NCBI RefSeq assembly: GCF_022179805.1
Contig: NZ_BPUO01000001.1
Coordinates: 186,001 to 250,000 of the forward strand
Reading direction: 5' to 3'
DNA length: 64,000 bases
Source of the DNA: Cupriavidus pauculus
GTDB lineage: Bacteria; Pseudomonadota; Gammaproteobacteria; Burkholderiales; Burkholderiaceae
Of this stretch, positions 21,715 through 61,368 are shown piece by piece. Numbering within the stretch: position 1 is the stretch's first letter; the number at the start of each line of letters is the position of its first letter. A program made the position numbers and the translations under genes. The notes beneath the pieces are model-generated. The model searched no databases, was not told the origin of the DNA, and saw nothing but the letters and a program-made list of their open reading frames with translations.

Positions 21715-24206
21715 TCAGGCATCGGCCCCGCGCGGCGCCTTGAAGACTTCCACCGCAGGCGCCGTGCCCTTGAACTTCTCCACTTCGGCCATCACGGTAT
21801 GGCCGCAGTTGCCTTGCGCGAGCTTCGACGTGCCAAGCCCCGGCGTCAGCACGTTGACATCGCCGTAGCGGCACAGCGCACCCGGCTTGCCGCCTTCCGC
21901 CGGGTCGTACCAGGCGCCCTCGCAGATCCGGATGGCGCCGCGCCGGATATCGGCGGTCAGCCTGACACCCGCCAGGATCTGGCCCCGGTCATTGAACACG
22001 CGCACGATGTCGCCATCGGCAACGCCGCGCGCGCGGGCATCCTCGGGATGCATCAGGCACGGCTCCCGCCCCTGCACCGTATAGCCCTTGCGCAGCACCG
22101 TGCCGCATAGCTGCGAATGCAGACGATCCTTCGGGTGGCTGGTGACGATGTGCAGCGGATAGCGCGTCGATGGCCCGCCCAGGCGTTCCAGCGGCTCCAT
22201 CCAGGTCGGATGCGGCGGGCAATCGTCGTACTTCATCCGCGCAATGTTCGCCGAGTAGATCTCGATGCGGCCTGACGCCGTACCCAGCGCGTTGAGCAGC
22301 GGATCGTCGCGGAACGACTTGTGGCGGATGAATTTCCGGGCCTCGTCGCTGATCGGGAATGCCAACGGCTTGTTGCTGTTCCAGAACACGTCGAACACCG
22401 GCATTTCCATGCGCTTGCCGCGCGCCTGTACGCGGCCGGCCTCGTAGAACGAGCGGATCCAGCCCATCTCGTCGCGTCCTTCGGTGAACGCCTTGCCGGT
22501 GCCCATCCGCTCGCAGATATCGGCAAAGATGTCGTAGTCGTTACGCGCCTCGAAGACCGGGTCCACCACCTTGCGCATGGCCAGGATATGGCTCATCGCG
22601 TAGTCGCCGATGCCCTCGATGTCGTTGCGCTCGTAGCTGGTCGTGCAAGGCAGCACGATGTCGGCATGGCGCGCCGTCGCGGTCCACTGGAAATCGTGGA
22701 CGATGAACGTATCGAGCTTCTGCCACGCCTTCAGCATCCGGTTGCGGTCCTGGTGGTGCATGAACGGATTGCCACCCACCCAGTAGGCCAGCTTGATGTC
22801 CGGATACTTCGCGCGCCCGCCGTTGAAGTCGTACGGCTTGCCTGGATTCTCGAGCATCTCGACGATGCGCGAGACCGGGATAGTTTCCGTCCCGCCCGCC
22901 TCCAGCCACTCCGAGCCCGCCGGCGGCTTGGTGCCGCCGGTGATGCCCGCAGCACCGGGCCGGTCGCCGTGGGGCTGCCGCCATTGGCGTAGTGATAGGT
23001 AAAGCCATAACCACCGCCCGGCAAGCCGATCTGGCCCAGCATGGCCGCCAGCGTCACCAGCATCCAGTGCGACTGCTCGCCGTGATGCTGGCGCTGGATC
23101 GACCAGCCGGCCGCCAGCATCGTCCGGTTCGCCGCGAAGCGCCGGGCCAGGTCGCGAATGGTATCGGCCGGAATCTCGCAGATCGCCGACGCCCACGCGG
23201 CGTCCTTGGGTACCCCGTCGGACTTGCCCGTGAGATACGGCACAAAGCGGTCAAACCCGGCCGTGTAGCGCGCCAGGAACTTCGCGTCATGCAGGTTTTC
23301 CGTGTACAGCGTGTGGGCGATGCCCAGCATCATGGTCACATCGGTATGCGGACGCGGCGCGATCCATTCGGCGTTGAAGTACTCGCAGGTCTCGGTCCGC
23401 ACCGGGTCGATGCAGATCACCTTGACACCCTTCTTCTTCAGCGCCTCCATGCCCGGATAGGCGCCGTGGTCCGGCACCTGCCAGCCAATCTGGTTGGTCA
23501 CGACCGGGTCGGCGGCCCAGAACACCATCAGCTTGGTATGTTCCTCGAGCACGGGCCAGGCAGTGGGCTGCTCGTACACGTCGATCGACCCCACCACATA
23601 GGGCAGGATCACCTGCGCCGCGCCGGTGGAATAGTCGCCGCTACGGCTGACGAAACCACCGTTCACCGACATCGCCCGCGACAGCAGCGTCTGGCAGTTG
23701 TGCAGCTTGCCGGGGCTCTTCCAGCCATACGATCCCGCGAAGATCGCCGTCGGCCCATGCTTGCCGCGTACCCGTTGCAGTTCCTTGGCGACCAGGTCGA
23801 GCGCCCGTTCCCAGCTCACGCGCACGAAGTCGCCCTTGCCCCGTCCGGCGGTGTCGGCACCGGGCCCGTTTTCGAGCCACGCGCGCCTGACCATCGGATA
23901 GCGGATCCGCGTGGGCGAATAGATGGAGTCGATCACGCCGGGCAACTGGTGCGATGGCCGCGGGTCCCTTTCCCAGGGTCGAACCCCGGTCACCCGCCCC
24001 TTCTCCACGCGTGCATAGAACGCGCCCCAGTGAGACCCCGTCAGTACCTCGGCCGAACCTGCCGGCCCATTGACTGGCGTCTTGTCCGCCGCGCCGGCGG
24101 CCAGCAGACCCGAACTGGTGGCGCCCAGCGCGCCCGTGGCCAATGCGCCCTGGATGAAACGACGGCGGGACACGCTCAGGTCCCCGTTCTTGCTGTCATG
24201 CGGCAT
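21715..24206 (-). pseudogene. torA: TorA-like (DMSO reductase family) molybdopterin oxidoreductase, frameshifted
   Basis: A periplasmic molybdoenzyme of the TMAO/DMSO/biotin-sulfoxide reductase type. The N-terminus has a Tat signal (SRRRFIQGALATGALGA, residues 13-29); FAGSYGWKSPGKLHNCQTL and SRSGDYSTGAAQVILPYVVG (region of the family's Mo-ligating Ser) mark the TorA/DorA branch. The reading frame breaks at 22946-22950: GGGYGFTYHYANGGSPTATG lies in one frame and GTETIPVSRIVEMLENPGKP, continuing to the normal C-terminus, in another. Adding one base in the GGG run restores about 830 aa, the family length. It could be real decay or a sequencing error. It overlaps torD by 11 nt. Confidence 0.85.
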
Positions 24207-24861
24207 GGTGATTCCCTTCTTCGTGTGGATGGAGGGCCGGCGCGTGCTTCAGCAGCACGCCAAGCAGGCTGGCGATGGCGCCATGAAATCCCCCGGGATC
24301 ATTGGAACGACACAGGTCGACGAGCGCCGGCACCCACCGGCCAAGACGTTCGCGCATCAGCGCGATGCCATCGGCATCGCCCCGGCGCAGCAGCACGGCA
24401 TACAGCGCGAGTTCCACCGAGACGTGGTCCGCTGGCTCGCTGCTGCCGTCCACCGAGACGTCGAACCGCACGAGCAGTTCGTTCATCTCATCCACCGCAT
24501 GGCCGAACAGCCGGGTGGCCGGCGCCGTGTCCGTGTTCGTGCTCGTTCCGGCATAGGCGCTTTCATACAGGGGGACCGCCGGCATCCCCATCACGCTGTC
24601 GAACAGGCGGGTCCACGCCACCGCGATGTCGAGGGCAAGCGCAGGCGCCGGCCCTGTCGACAATGCCTGGGACAAGCTGTCGATTTCCGCTGCGCAGTCG
24701 AATTCCTCGGCGATGGCATCGAACAGCAGCTCGCCTTGCGCCGAGCAGAGCTGTTCGATCGTCGACTCGCTAGCCGGCGCCTCGATCAACCCGGCGATCA
24801 GTTCGATGACCGCCGCGCAGGTCTGCCGCTGCGACCGGGCAATTTCAGCGGCGGTGCTCAT
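24196..24861 (-). CDS. torD: TorD/DmsD family molybdoenzyme chaperone
   Basis: A cytoplasmic chaperone that binds the Tat signal and apo-form of its partner molybdoenzyme until cofactor insertion. The 221-aa, mostly helical protein carries the family motif VPLYESAYAGTS (about 97-108) and LRRGDADGIALMRERLGRWVP, seen in TorD-like proteins. Its ATG overlaps the cytochrome stop codon by 4 nt, and it overlaps the TorA-like start by 11 nt, so the three are one operon. This gene is intact while both neighbours are frameshifted. Confidence 0.85.
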   Translation of the reverse strand: MSTAAEIARSQRQTCAAVIELIAGLIEAPASESTIEQLCSAQGELLFDAIAEEFDCAAEIDSLSQALSTGPAPALALDIAVAWTRLFDSVMGMPAVPLYESAYAGTSTNTDTAPATRLFGHAVDEMNELLVRFDVSVDGSSEPADHVSVELALYAVLLRRGDADGIALMRERLGRWVPALVDLCRSNDPGGFHGAIASLLGVLLKHAPALHPHEEGNHHAA

Positions 24862-26464
24862 TTGTGTCCGCCGCCTTGCGTAGCCGGCCCGACGTCCTTG
24901 GAATGGTCCTGCAGCCAGGACAGCATCAGCCGGTACTCGGCGTCATCGAGCGACGTGTACCGCTTCATCGCGCCTAGCGTGCCAATCCACTGGTTCGCCA
25001 GGTACTCCTCGGAATGCGGCAAGGCATGGCAACTCGCACACGACTGCCGGTAGGTCTCGTCGCTATGCTTCCAGAGCTGCATCAGGTCGGCCGACAGCCC
25101 GGCAGTCGGCAGGATCCAGACCGCAAGGCTGCCCTGGTGCCAGTCCTGGCCGGTCTCCTCGTCGCGCTCGGTCTTCTCGCGGTTCACCTTGGCGATGGCC
25201 TCGGGTGACAGCACGGCCTGCATGATCCGCTGCCCCTTGAGCGCGTACATCGCGCTTTCCGAACCGTCCTGCTGCCAGCCATCCACACGCACCTGCATCC
25301 GCCCTGCTTCGCGCTTGAGCACCGCCAGCCGCGTGCACCCAGCAGCTTGCCGTCCTCGCCAGTGCCGTTGGCCTCCAGCGTGAACGGCGTGGGCGACACC
25401 ACGTACAGCACGTCCTGCTTGCCCAGCATATCGGGCGATGCCGCCAGCGAGGCCAGCCGCGACGGCCCGGCATGCGCCTGGCCGGCCGCCAGCATTACCA
25501 CTTCCTCGGTACGGTTCGGCCTTGGCGCACCGGCATTGGGCGCTTCCACCCCCGGCAGCGACTTCAGGTAGACCGCCATGGCCAGCCGGTCAGACTCCGA
25601 CAACCGCGCGGTGTTGACGACCACTTCCTTCATGTCGCCACCGGCCTTGATGCCGATCGGATTGACGCCCTCCTCCAGATAGCGCGCGATGTCGTTGACC
25701 GACCAGTAGCCGATGCCGGTCTCGTCCTGCGAGATATTGGGGATATGGCCTGTGCCTTCCGGATTCGGCCCGCCCGAGAAACGCTTGGCAAAGGGCACGG
25801 CGCCCATCGCGTTGCGCGGCGAATGGCATTCCACGCAATGCGCGGAGCCTTCCACGAGGTAGCGCCCACGGTTCCACTGCGCGGTCTGCGTGAGGTCTTC
25901 CGGCAACGGCTTGCCGTCCAGGAACGCCAGCCGCCACAGCCCGACGCCGCGGCGCATCGAGAACGGAAACTTCAGGTCGTGATCGGGCACCTTGCCGGCC
26001 ACCGGCGGCAACGACTGGATGTACGCGAACAGGTCGCGCAGGTCGTTGGCCGTCATGCGCTGGTATGACGTGTACGGGAATGCGGGATAGGCGTTGCCCT
26101 TGCCGGGAATCACGCCTTCGCGCATCGCCATGATGAACTGCTCGACCGTGTAGCCGCCGATGCCATCCATGGGATGCGAGGAGATGTTCGGCATGTGGAA
26201 TTCGCCGAACGCGGTGTCGAGCGATCGACCGCCGCCGAGCAGGGTCTCGTCGCCCTTGCCCACCGACGCGTGGCACGTCGCGCAGTCGCCGGCGATGAAC
26301 TGCGTGCGGCCATTCACCAGGTCTGGCACACCAGCGTCGGGCAGGTCGCGCGGACCGTTGAGCAGGCGCCAGGTGCTTGGCGCCGTCAGCACCAGGAACA
26401 GCGCAAGCCCGACCAGCGCAATCAAGCCAACAATGAGCAGGGACCTACTTTTTCTCGTTGCCAT
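24858..26464 (-). pseudogene. Chimeric c-type cytochrome: dihaem class-I module plus TorC C-terminal domain, frameshifted
   Basis: Predicted electron donor to the TorA-like enzyme. An N-terminal anchor (LLIVGLIALVGLALFLVL, residues 9-26) is followed by two class-I haem sites, GDCATCH and AHCVECH, resembling cytochrome subunits of alcohol/gluconate dehydrogenases. The C-terminal part (VRVDGWQQDGSESAMYALKG, then SCASCH and ANQWIGTLGAMKRYTSLDD) matches the TorC C-terminal haem domain; no NapC/NirT tetrahaem part is present. The frame shifts by one base near 25338-25340 (GGG run on the coding strand); restoring it gives about 535 aa. The ATG at 26464 has GAGGT 6 nt upstream. Confidence 0.78.
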
Positions 26465-57667: not shown

Positions 57668-59058
57668 TGTGTGGCTTGGGCGTTGGGCGTTGCCGCAGAC
57701 TTGCGCGCGGCGGGGTCGACGATGGCATTGGCCACGGTGTGGGCCTGCGGGCCAGTGGCGTTGGCCTGGGCCGTCGGCACGTAGCCATCGGTCAGCGTGT
57801 TCAGAAAGGCCACCAGGTCCTGCATCTCCTGGTCGGTCATCGGCGTCTGGCTGCCGGCACGACGCTGGTCCAGCGGCATCTGCTCGTCCAGATTGGCGCG
57901 ATACTTCGCCGGCAGGTCGTCGAACTTGTTCACCTTGCCGCGCGCATCGCGGGGATACCACTTCTCGGGCGCGGTATCGCGCGTGTTGTAGAAGCGCACC
58001 ACGTCTTCCAGCGACTTGAACACGCCGTTGTGCATGAACGCATGGCGCGTGGCCACGTTACGCAGCACGGGCGTCTTGAACATGCCGCAGGTGGCCGCCG
58101 CGCCCTTGTCCTTGCCGGGGCGATGGTCGGTGCGCAGCGGCCCGCACAGGCCCAGGTCGAAATACTTCGGATCGGCGTTGGCGGGGATGTCGCGATTGCG
58201 CGGCACGCCGATGGCGGCAAACGAGTAGTCGCTGGTCATGTCCTGGCTGCCGTCGTTGCCGCCGCCCAGCAGGTGGCAGGCCATGCAGTTGCCCTTGTTG
58301 GGGTCCAGGAACACGCGCAGGCCACGGATCTCGGCATCGGTCAGCGCGCCGCCCACCTTGTTGTTGCGGTAGCGGTCGAACTTGCTGCTGTACGGGTGAA
58401 AGCTGCGGTCTTCCACCTGGAAAGCCTGCAGCGCGGCGCCCACCAGCGCGAACGCCTTGTCGGTGTCGTCGAACACGCTCGCGCCATAAGCCTGGCGGAA
58501 CGCGTCGGCATGCGCCCCGCCGCGTACGGCGTCGACGACAGCCGCCTTGCTGGCGGCCGCCATCTCGTTCGGCGCCAGCAGCGGAATCGCGGCCTGTTCG
58601 GCGATGGTGTTGGCGCGGCCGTCCCACGTGAGCCCGCCACCGGGACCGGGCGGGCTGATCATGTCGGGGTTCTCGAACGTATCGGAGTAGGCGTTGGTGT
58701 ACTCCTTGTACATCAGCGTCGGCACGGCGCGCGTGCCCGGCTGCTTGCCATCGGTACCACCCAGCTGCACCGACAGGTCGTTGGCCGGCGCGTAGGCGTG
58801 GTTCGGGTCGTGGCAGGTGGCGCAGGACATCTTGCCCGAGCCGGAAAGCGAGGGATCGAAGAACAGCTTGGCACCCACCTGCGCGGCGGGCGACAGCGGC
58901 GGCGCAGCAGGGGCCGCTACGGGTGCGGACACCTGCACGGCTTTGGCCGGTGCGGCGACCGTTACCGGCTTGCCGGATTCGGTTTTCGGCTGGCACGCGG
59001 CCAGCGCCACGGCAAGCGATACCGCGCTACAGCGCGCGGCGAAACTGGAAATACGCAT
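57664..59058 (-). CDS. MauG/CcpA-type dihaem cytochrome c peroxidase, lipoprotein
   Basis: A 464-aa dihaem peroxidase-like protein. A lipoprotein signal (SLAVALAAC, Cys at residue 22) and an Ala/Pro linker (about 30-55) lead to haem 1 in SCATCHDPNHAYA (about 80) and haem 2 in NCMACH (about 269). RHAFMHNGVFKSLEDVVRFYN and the C-terminal MTDQEMQDLVAFLNTLTDG match the CcpA/MauG family. It is bracketed by two other predicted lipoproteins on the same strand, so an outer-membrane or periplasmic redox role is likely. Confidence 0.9.
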   Translation of the reverse strand: MRISSFAARCSAVSLAVALAACQPKTESGKPVTVAAPAKAVQVSAPVAAPAAPPLSPAAQVGAKLFFDPSLSGSGKMSCATCHDPNHAYAPANDLSVQLGGTDGKQPGTRAVPTLMYKEYTNAYSDTFENPDMISPPGPGGGLTWDGRANTIAEQAAIPLLAPNEMAAASKAAVVDAVRGGAHADAFRQAYGASVFDDTDKAFALVGAALQAFQVEDRSFHPYSSKFDRYRNNKVGGALTDAEIRGLRVFLDPNKGNCMACHLLGGGNDGSQDMTSDYSFAAIGVPRNRDIPANADPKYFDLGLCGPLRTDHRPGKDKGAAATCGMFKTPVLRNVATRHAFMHNGVFKSLEDVVRFYNTRDTAPEKWYPRDARGKVNKFDDLPAKYRANLDEQMPLDQRRAGSQTPMTDQEMQDLVAFLNTLTDGYVPTAQANATGPQAHTVANAIVDPAARKSAATPNAQATQ

Positions 59059-59163
59059 GATGGGGATGGGCGGTGGCAGCCGCCTTCCGTTTGGCGGATG
59101 AATGACGGCGAGCCGCCGGCGCACGGGGCACCGGCGGCCTTCAGACGCTTTGCGTGCGAACGC

Positions 59164-61368
59164 TTACGACTTGATTGCCCAGATGTTGACCTGGCTGGTG
59201 TCCGGACCGGTGGCCACGTTGTTGCCGCTGCCCACCGAACCGCTGCCGCTGCCGCCGGCCACGCTGCCACCCGACTGCAGGTCGCCGGCCTTGACCACGT
59301 ACTTGTGGTTCATCGGACGAACCGAGTCGAAGTGGGTATTGGCGCTACCCGAGTACTCGGCCAGGTTGGCCAGGTTGTCGGCGATGTACTGCTCGGTGTA
59401 TTTCGAGCGGTTCATGTACGACGCCGGCACGGCCGGGTCGGCCAGGCCGAACATGTCCTGCATCGTGCGCACGAACGAGAAGTGGCTGTAGGCATCGGAG
59501 TCCACCACCTGCTTGGGCGCGCCCGGCTGGTTGGTCAGCAGCGCGAAGATGGTGGGGCCGTCGCCCTTGTTGCCGCCGTTGTAGCGCGGCACCGCGGTGC
59601 TGATGCCCTCGCCCAGCGGCCAGCCGCTGGTGGCGCCGCCGCCCACGTTCCAGCCGCAGCACGACGAGCTGCCGAAGAAGCTCGAACCTTCGTCGAACAG
59701 CATCACGATGGCCGACCGGCGGCTGGTGTTCTTCCATGCCGGCGAAGCCTGGATCTGGTCCACCAGGTACTTGGCATAGGCGTCACCACGCGCGATGTTG
59801 GTCGACAGGCACGGACCCACGCCGTGGATGTCGTCGCACTGGTCCGGCACGATGTAGTTCAGCGCGCCGATATCGCCGCTCTTGAGGTCGTCCTCGAACT
59901 GGTGGGTATTCCACGTGATGTTGTTGGTCGCCGCGTAGCTGACGATCGACGCATCCCACTGGCCGCCGCCCACCGAACGGTTCAGGTTCTTGAAGAAGTC
60001 GGGGCGGTTGCGCACGTCGTCGAAGTTGACGGCCGGGTGGTGCTTGGTCTTGTACAGGCCCGCCGGCATGGTTTCAGCCACGCCGGTGCTGGGGTTCGGG
60101 CCGCTGATGGAGGCATTGGCCACGCCGTCGCGGCGCGGGTCCTGGCCCGGGTTCATCGATTCGCTGTAGACGCGCGTGCCCATGCCGGCCTTGTACATGG
60201 CCGTGAACATGTTGCGGCGGCCCTTCAGGTTGTGCACGCGGGTGTCGGCGTTGCAGGCCGTGACCGGCACGTAGACGTCGGTCGGCTGGTTGGCCGTGTC
60301 GCCCGCCGGCAGGCAGTTCCATGCGTTGTCGTCGGCCACGCCCCAGTCGTCGGCGCTGGCCAGCGAGATGTAGTTCGGCTCGCTGGGGTTGCCCGTGGAG
60401 AAGTAGTTGGCCGCCTTGTTGCCTTCCGTGTGCAGGTACTTGTAGAAGTTCGGGTAGGCCGCGTTGTCAATGGTCTGGTTGCTGTGGTTCTCGAAGATCA
60501 CCACGAACAGGTGGTCGTAGCGCGGAATGCCTTCGGGGTTGAACGCGGCATCCTGCGCGGCCTTCAGCGTGGTGACCGGATCGGTGGCGCTGTCGCTAAC
60601 GTAGCCGCGATCCAGGATCGTGGCGGCCTGCGTGTAGCGCGCGGCCAGCGTGTTGTCTTCCACCAGCAGCGCGCGGGCGGCGGCCGTATCCGACAGGCTG
60701 CCCGGCTGCGCCACCACGTCGTCGGCCTTGACCGTGACATCGGCCGTGCCGCCGGCAAAGCTCAGGCGGCTGGCGATGGCGGTCTTGGCATCGGCAAACT
60801 TCAGCGATTCGGCTTCGGTCAGGCGCACCACTTCGGTCGACAGCGGGCTGATGACCACGTCGGTATCGGCCGTGGCCTGCTCGGCGGCGCTGCGCAGGAT
60901 CATCTTGCTGGCCACCTTGGTGTTGCCAGCCACGGGGTCGACGTACGAGGCGTCGGTGCCCACCACGGCCACCAGGCTCGCGGCCGGCGTGATCAGCGTG
61001 AAGCGGCCGTTGGCGTCGGTGCGCGTGGCGGCCTCGCCGCTGTCGCACGCGCCGTTGCCGTTGGTGTCGGCGCAGACCGTGGCGTTGGCATACGTCACCG
61101 GCACGAACGTCTGGTCGACGGCGTCGCCGGTGGAGCTCTTGGCGTAGTCGACGCCCGCGGCCGACGAATTGGCCACGCCGGTCGGGTTCTTGACGGCCGC
61201 GCCGCCCACCACACCGCTCACGGTCTGCGTGGTGCCGCCGTTAGTGCCGGTGTTGCCGGTGTTGCCCGATGATGTGGTGGTGTTGTCGTCGCCACCGCAG
61301 GCCGCGAGCATCGCGGCGGCGGCAAGGGCGGTGAGCAATGGGACGAGGTTGGGGTGCTTAGGGTGCAT
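59164..61368 (-). CDS. Phosphoesterase/phospholipase C-like lipoprotein
   Basis: A 734-aa secreted phosphoesterase. A lipobox (MLAACGG) and a Thr/Asn/Gly-rich linker lead to a region with a calcium-type DTNGNGACDSGEA loop (about 100-112), then a phosphoesterase domain from FVVIFENHSNQTIDNAAYPN (about 294) through STGNPSEPNYISLASAD, ALNYIVPDQCDD and MLFDEGSSF to DSDAYSHFSFVRTMQDMFGL. These follow the acid phosphatase/phospholipase C family. The tail is Gly/Ser-rich. It precedes the dihaem peroxidase gene by 105 nt. Confidence 0.85.
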   Translation of the reverse strand: MHPKHPNLVPLLTALAAAAMLAACGGDDNTTTSSGNTGNTGTNGGTTQTVSGVVGGAAVKNPTGVANSSAAGVDYAKSSTGDAVDQTFVPVTYANATVCADTNGNGACDSGEAATRTDANGRFTLITPAASLVAVVGTDASYVDPVAGNTKVASKMILRSAAEQATADTDVVISPLSTEVVRLTEAESLKFADAKTAIASRLSFAGGTADVTVKADDVVAQPGSLSDTAAARALLVEDNTLAARYTQAATILDRGYVSDSATDPVTTLKAAQDAAFNPEGIPRYDHLFVVIFENHSNQTIDNAAYPNFYKYLHTEGNKAANYFSTGNPSEPNYISLASADDWGVADDNAWNCLPAGDTANQPTDVYVPVTACNADTRVHNLKGRRNMFTAMYKAGMGTRVYSESMNPGQDPRRDGVANASISGPNPSTGVAETMPAGLYKTKHHPAVNFDDVRNRPDFFKNLNRSVGGGQWDASIVSYAATNNITWNTHQFEDDLKSGDIGALNYIVPDQCDDIHGVGPCLSTNIARGDAYAKYLVDQIQASPAWKNTSRRSAIVMLFDEGSSFFGSSSCCGWNVGGGATSGWPLGEGISTAVPRYNGGNKGDGPTIFALLTNQPGAPKQVVDSDAYSHFSFVRTMQDMFGLADPAVPASYMNRSKYTEQYIADNLANLAEYSGSANTHFDSVRPMNHKYVVKAGDLQSGGSVAGGSGSGSVGSGNNVATGPDTSQVNIWAIKS

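Follow-up and report, generated by a model that had tools for sequence, protein, structure and literature searches.

To our knowledge, DMSO/TMAO respiration by DorA and TorA relies on a NapC-type multihaem quinol dehydrogenase as electron donor. The known gene layout is dorC, dorD, dorA, in that order. In the cytochrome subunits of dehydrogenases, which reduce quinone, haem domains 1 and 2 form the path towards ubiquinone, and it is the third domain that is turned to the enzyme; the better-studied relatives of this dihaem module react with ubiquinone. In E. coli, according to PMC11727998, TorC is supplied by the menaquinone pool, and transfer onwards to TorA is proposed to go through its C-terminal domain.

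The cytochrome gene described here lies in a stretch of 64,000 nucleotides from Cupriavidus pauculus (contig NZ_BPUO01000001.1, positions 186,001 to 250,000), which we call the window. Like the pentahaem cytochromes TorC, DorC and TorY, its product has a single N-terminal anchor and a hinge followed by a monohaem domain, and like theirs the gene stands beside those for an S/N-oxide reductase and (mostly) TorD. The pentahaem proteins have a NapC/NirT tetrahaem module and five haems, whereas the chimera has a dihaem module and three haem motifs. With the trihaem subunits of the FdhC/AdhB type (7w2j, 8hdd, 8gy2, 8gy3) it shares the first two haem domains, about 290 residues being homologous, but where those proteins have a third class-I haem domain of their own the chimera has the TorC module; it also differs in its DorA-like partner and in Met 90. 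The anchored dihaem cytochromes found beside cox genes in rhizobia adjoin the chimeras in the tree of the N-terminal half (43-49% identity), but they lack the TorC module and Met 90, and their neighbour is an oxidase. Finally, the Rhodobacter DMSO reductase DorA is a close homologue of the partner enzyme, with Tyr114/Trp116 in both, but it has a different donor cytochrome, and the enzymes linked to chimeras make up a separate clade next to the DorC-linked ones.

The operon in the window

The gene of the chimeric trihaem cytochrome (24858..26464, minus strand) encodes, after the anchor, a pair of class-I haem domains and then the hinge and monohaem domain of the TorC type. ORF and profile reading agreed with the original prediction in these coordinates and in all other facts stated there for the cytochrome. 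The in-frame 5' part (25340..26464, minus strand) holds the anchor, with a hydropathy peak of 2.99, and the dihaem module (CATCH, CVECH); its frame, which runs from 26464 to 25184 on the minus strand, includes GDCATCH as well as AHCVECH and has a Pfam Cytochrom_C match with E=3.9e-12. The in-frame 3' part is the TorC C-terminal module, i.e. the hinge and the CASCH monohaem domain. This frame (25322 to 24858, minus strand; 24858..25322) includes SCASCH as well as ANQWIGTLGAMKRYTSLDD. Its match to NCBIfam TIGR02162 (torC) spans model positions 240-384 of 387 with E=1.2e-36 and scores 126.8 bits against a whole-protein cut-off that is far higher (478.2).

The TorD-family chaperone gene is an open frame (24196..24861, minus strand) that matches PF02613 with E=8.7e-15 and the NCBIfam TorD model with E=9.2e-19, the latter with a score under the model cut-off. 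It overlaps both flanking genes, the cytochrome gene by 4 bp and the reductase gene by 11 bp, and the overlaps claimed for the downstream genes are thus present. The reductase gene (21715..24206, minus strand) encodes the GSYGW motif and is frameshifted near 22950-22977; its frames, 22731-24206 and 21715-23196, each match one half of the bisC/torA models. Matches to Tat signal models are below cut-off, both for Pfam TAT_signal (17.4 of 22.7 bits) and for TIGR01409 (16.4 of 16.7). The order cytochrome, torD, dorA-like gene is thus a modified form of dorC-dorD-dorA. No regulator/hybrid kinase pair was seen by eye adjoining the window operon. A BisC-family enzyme gene of near full length, with one internal stop in the match, lies elsewhere in the same genome (G000:C5:141041-143260).

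Architecture of the chimeric cytochrome

The open-frame homologues are about 540 amino acids long with three CxxCH motifs. Leaving aside five near-copies (L061, L079, L127, L128, L129), three motifs were counted in 22/22 chimeras and five in 21/22 canonical sequences, the remaining one being the monohaem L102. The first haem motif is CSTCH in the Neorhizobium and Azospirillum chimeras. Residues 1-30 form a single hydrophobic anchor: the N-terminal hydropathy peak is at least 1.77 and later peaks are at most 1.32 in 21/22 sequences, the lone exception (L062) having lost its 5' end at a contig edge.

Over residues ~40-320 the protein shares homology with haem domains 1-2 from the cytochrome subunits of dehydrogenases that act on fructose, glucose, aldehydes and alcohols. 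A profile search of the PDB matched six sequences, every one a dehydrogenase cytochrome subunit, with 7w2j_C as the best (E=7.3e-65, positions 28-316 of 541). The predicted structure is a middling model (mean pLDDT 66.3, with blocks ranging from 31 to 87 within residues 1-330); Foldseek with the predicted fold returned 8jej_C (E=2.3e-18), and structure comparison gave 8gy3_A (Z 19.8) and 8jej_C (Z 19.5), with 7w2j_C and 8gy2_B within Z 18.5-19.8. The likeness to alcohol dehydrogenase cytochromes that had been proposed for the N-terminal half is therefore returned by all three approaches. A third class-I haem domain of the FdhC/AdhB kind is absent: the best match stops at 316 of 541, and the rest is the TorC module. 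Residues ~348-457 are predicted with higher confidence as SH3-like, with best Z values of 8-9, about what common folds reach, and the monohaem domain stands C-terminal to this region.

Exactly three methionines are invariant in the 22 sequences (90, 277 and 498), one in each haem domain. Met 90 occurs in 22/22 chimeras and 0/11 relatives. The Met in the PAMPY motif of the dehydrogenase cytochromes is replaced by Phe in 22/22 chimeras, and Phe is also found in 7/11 relatives. Judging from this sequence pattern, all three haems are probably His/Met-ligated.

Among the 11 relatives sampled for the N-half tree, i.e. 10 hand-picked plasmid matches (of 648 and 633 records) and the Bradyrhizobium protein L070, the nearest kin are anchored dihaem cytochromes. 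For three of these nearest relatives the surroundings are a cox cluster that also encodes a small c-type cytochrome, and a fourth lies by an oxidase assembly gene.

The C-terminal module and the TorC family

TIGR02162 matches the window fragment and 18/18 scanned homologues; in the first of these, residues 348-527 align with model positions 205-386 at 140.9 bits, against the cut-off of 478.2. The C-terminus is thus placed inside the TorC family, as originally predicted, and not outside it. Hinge and monohaem domain align throughout with E. coli TorC and TorY. The NapC/NirT module (PF03264, Cytochrom_NNT) was found in 0/18 homologues at E<=0.01; the control, E. coli TorC, gave E=2.7e-71. By analogy, the C-terminal module of the chimera would serve a DorA-like periplasmic molybdoenzyme.

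In the phylum sample the C-domain profile matched 28/398 genomes. The 30 loci comprise 22 pentahaem cytochromes, three chimeras (in two Cupriavidus genomes), one monohaem-only ORF and four weak short matches; three further matches without a locus stand outside the 30. NapC-type proteins dominated the matches to the whole TorC profile, and that search does not enter the counts. The monohaem-only ORF, L102, is a TorC C-terminal domain in a separate ORF adjoining a torA-type gene. With one such ORF at 30 loci, a free TorC domain is ruled out as the common state. The chimera is likewise ruled out as the usual alphaproteobacterial form: 7/7 matches there, found in 6/385 sampled genomes, are pentahaem.

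The partner enzyme

An enzyme gene of the S/N-oxide reductase family follows the cytochrome gene in 26/26 loci, with torD between them in 21/26; these loci include the five near-copies named above, which the trees omit. The partner is of the TorA/DorA type in all 26, and no linkage to a GMC, PQQ or molybdenum-hydroxylase dehydrogenase was found.

The original prediction of a torD gene followed by a gene for a TorA-like enzyme holds for torD and for the presence of a reductase, while the enzyme itself is DorA-like. TorA proper was dropped as its identity on the basis of PDB scores, a sequence motif and the enzyme tree. The enzyme of Cupriavidus sp. D384 scores 1258.7 bits with 1e18, a 'DMSO reductase', versus 922.8 and 873.4 bits with the TMAO reductases 7l5i and 9h4t. 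GSYGW, which contains Tyr114 and Trp116 in R. capsulatus numbering, is present in 21/21 enzymes checked and in the window frame and is not found in E. coli TorA; the motif is not specific, since E. coli TorZ and BisC carry it also. According to PMC5122715, which deals with the role of Tyr114/Trp116, E. coli TorA lacks the Tyr and the S-oxide reductases compared there have it. Cupriavidus and Burkholderia sequences were placed with R. capsulatus DorA in that paper, so that the enzyme group is not new; it is the donor cytochrome that is new.

In the enzyme tree, the chimera-linked enzymes together with that of the window, trimmed to its in-frame part, form one clade (99/97) adjoining alphaproteobacterial enzymes linked to pentahaem DorC. 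Four such DorC-linked enzymes group with the chimera-linked clade, with support of 80/47 for all four and 92/93 for the inner three, and the grouping stands apart from TorA and TorZ/BisC; a fifth alphaproteobacterial sequence, L139, sits with TorA. The tree contains no Rhodobacter DorA sequence, and the partial enzymes L055 and L066 were omitted from it.

Distribution and history of the fusion

The TorC C-domain was found in 8/299 sampled genomes of the same family. Six of the eight, five of them Cupriavidus, carry the trihaem form with its three haem motifs as a single ORF, in seven copies altogether; broken copies are found in the window genome (two) and in one fragmentary genome. The same fusion thus occurs in other Burkholderiaceae, as the proposed survey was to establish, and the two halves are not separate genes in the homologues.

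A collection of 84,980 species yielded 20 loci: 17 one-frame chimeras (including L062 with its cut 5' end), the broken L068, and L070 and L071. L071 runs off the end of its contig and stays unclassed, and L070 (Bradyrhizobium) has three haems with a match that ends before the TorC domain, i.e. it is a relative without that domain. Since the scan relied on just two short peptide patterns, chimeras with other first haem motifs, such as CSTCH, could be missed, and the 17 loci are a lower bound. The hosts are Cupriavidus, Burkholderia dolosa, Paraburkholderia dinghuensis, Cereibacter, Afifella, Rhodovulum, Bradyrhizobium and Halomonas, as well as MAGs of Alcaligenaceae and Azospirillaceae. Among plasmids 648 records match, eight of them over at least 80% of the query, which adds Neorhizobium and Azospirillum brasilense to the hosts.

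Some of the operons deviate in their gene content. In Cupriavidus agavae (L053 6001-13608 / L017) there are two tandem operons of chimeric cytochrome, torD and dorA-like gene. The Cereibacter operons (L057, L058, L075, L128, L129) have no torD between cytochrome and reductase, and the enzyme may therefore rely on a chaperone from elsewhere. Operons on Azospirillum and Rhodovulum plasmids are divergent from genes for a response regulator and a hybrid sensor kinase (L077 3711-6706; L078 3652-6698). The best NCBIfam match of the Rhodovulum plasmid kinase is TorS (E=2.4e-62), and that of the response regulator is PhoB, with TorR fourth; all of these are below cut-off.

The N-terminal halves of the chimeras form one clade (99/96), and their C-domains form one clade with moderate support (87/87), in which three sequences have long branches. 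In the enzyme tree, Paraburkholderia groups with an Azospirillum plasmid (99/96). The fused form is grouped by all three trees, and the simplest reading would be a single ancestral event in which a DorC exchanged its NapC module, with horizontal spread afterwards. Two Rhodovulum assemblies, L060 and L061, are identical over 6.2 kb around the operon, which is either a recent transfer or cross-contamination.

State of the window copy

The two cytochrome frames join near 25334 and are separated by one single-base gap relative to Cupriavidus sp. D384. Beyond what was originally predicted, the reductase gene is likewise split by a single-base frameshift relative to D384, and a decayed second copy of the operon lies on contig C25, where the cytochrome is spread over three frames and torD runs into a reductase remnant. 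The operon of the window was possibly lost recently or mis-sequenced, and this copy may be inactive.

We give slightly less than even odds to the reading that the operon is, in this genome alone, a functionless pseudogene. It would explain why single-base frameshifts hit both the cytochrome and the reductase gene, and it fits the decay of the second copy. The comparison with the syntenic D384 region, in which only gene calls with a match were counted (49 crude calls, 47 of them at >=60% identity), points in both directions. Four calls were flagged as split: besides cytochrome and reductase, these are a di-haem peroxidase-like gene and an antisense ORF of doubtful status. None of the genes adjacent to the operon that have a D384 counterpart is among them, in accordance with local decay. 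On the other hand, a third, unrelated gene is split as well, which makes sequencing error possible. This gene, of the di-haem cytochrome c peroxidase/MauG-like kind (57688-59839, minus strand), occupies two frames in the window and encodes 726 aa in D384. Moreover, dN/dS of the two operon genes between window and D384 is 0.065-0.13, inside the range of pairs of open frames (0.04-0.17); for the 5' part of the cytochrome it is 0.14 versus U2 and 0.21 versus C. agavae. These values do not support the idea that relaxed selection proves pseudogenisation.

A proposed electron route

The fusion, the homologies of its parts, the conserved gene neighbourhood and the structure of the clades are shown by the comparisons above. 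We infer the direction of electron flow, quinol as the donor, the ligation of the haems and the substrate. In the reading that we prefer, to which we assign a probability of about 0.6, the operon is a dorCDA variant in which the NapC module has been replaced, and electrons would pass from ubiquinol through the dihaem module and the TorC-type haem to the DorA-like enzyme. Ubiquinol of the inner membrane would reduce haem 1 and haem 2 (His/Met) of the anchored module; these would pass the electrons to the TorC-type haem and then to the Mo cofactor of the enzyme, which would reduce DMSO, TMAO or a related S/N-oxide. In other words, a TorC module in the place of the enzyme-facing third haem domain would connect a quinone-facing relay to DorA, and the alternative electron route to a periplasmic S/N-oxide reductase that was originally suggested would take this form. 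A search of the window's genome that covered the menA route gave no match, with a positive control in E. coli, and the quinone pool is therefore probably ubiquinol. A difficulty for this reading is that, with His/Met ligation throughout, the haems may lie at potentials too positive for efficient reduction of DMSO or TMAO.

Cytochrome c is the main rival donor, because the nearest stand-alone relatives of the dihaem module adjoin oxidase or oxidase assembly genes. The chimera would then be fed by the bc1 complex or by a periplasmic cytochrome c, the dihaem module would be an anchored relay, and the output would still go to the DorA-like enzyme. All four relatives in oxidase surroundings, including the three from cox clusters, adjoin the chimeras in the N-half tree, and all three chimera haems look His/Met-ligated. 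The potentials are about +130 to +160 mV for DMSO/TMAO and about +250 mV for cytochrome c, and transfer from the latter would run uphill; in addition, the better-studied relatives of the module react with the quinone itself. We regard this route as unlikely.

Less probable still is reverse flow, in which the molybdoenzyme would oxidise, for example, dimethyl sulfide and quinone would receive the electrons from the chimera. In its favour, the N-module relatives of known structure are subunits of quinone-reducing dehydrogenases, aerobes and phototrophs are among the hosts, and DorA can oxidise dimethyl sulfide in vitro. However, the enzyme clade adjoins DorC-linked enzymes, and the Rhodovulum plasmid operon adjoins a TorS-like hybrid kinase, which indicates S/N-oxide sensing. 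Finally, that the cytochrome represents two separate genes, a chance juxtaposition or an annotation artefact has a negligible probability: the window copy does occupy two frames, but one open frame with three haem motifs occurs at 17 genome loci, eight plasmids match over 93% of the query, and separate genes or chance are ruled out by homologues that are single ORFs.

Meaning of the fusion

In the open full-text literature that was covered, where subscription journals are mostly outside, no description of the fusion was found; this scope includes passages of PMC5122715, PMC11727998, PMC10609526, PMC10100899, PMC9600427 and PMC10689795. Plasmid annotations name the chimeras 'cytochrome c', 'c-type cytochrome' and once 'cycG: diheme cytochrome c-type'. 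Searches for full-length TorC would overlook them.

We note that in the chimeras, which occur in Alpha-, Beta- and Gammaproteobacteria, the same docking domain is carried by a class-I dihaem module that is unrelated to NapC. We see an even chance that the chimeras are a second, non-NapC class of quinol:S/N-oxide oxidoreductase, in which a quinone-reactive dihaem module of the dehydrogenase type was captured once, reversed so as to oxidise ubiquinol, given a DorC docking domain and spread partly by plasmid. If this is true, the partner of a quinone-facing relay would be decided solely by the domain that touches the enzyme, and the cassette would have spread across three classes of Proteobacteria. 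As a natural domain swap, the chimera bears on two questions: which features let a cytochrome act as quinol oxidase or as quinone reductase, and by what means an enzyme is recognised by the TorC domain.
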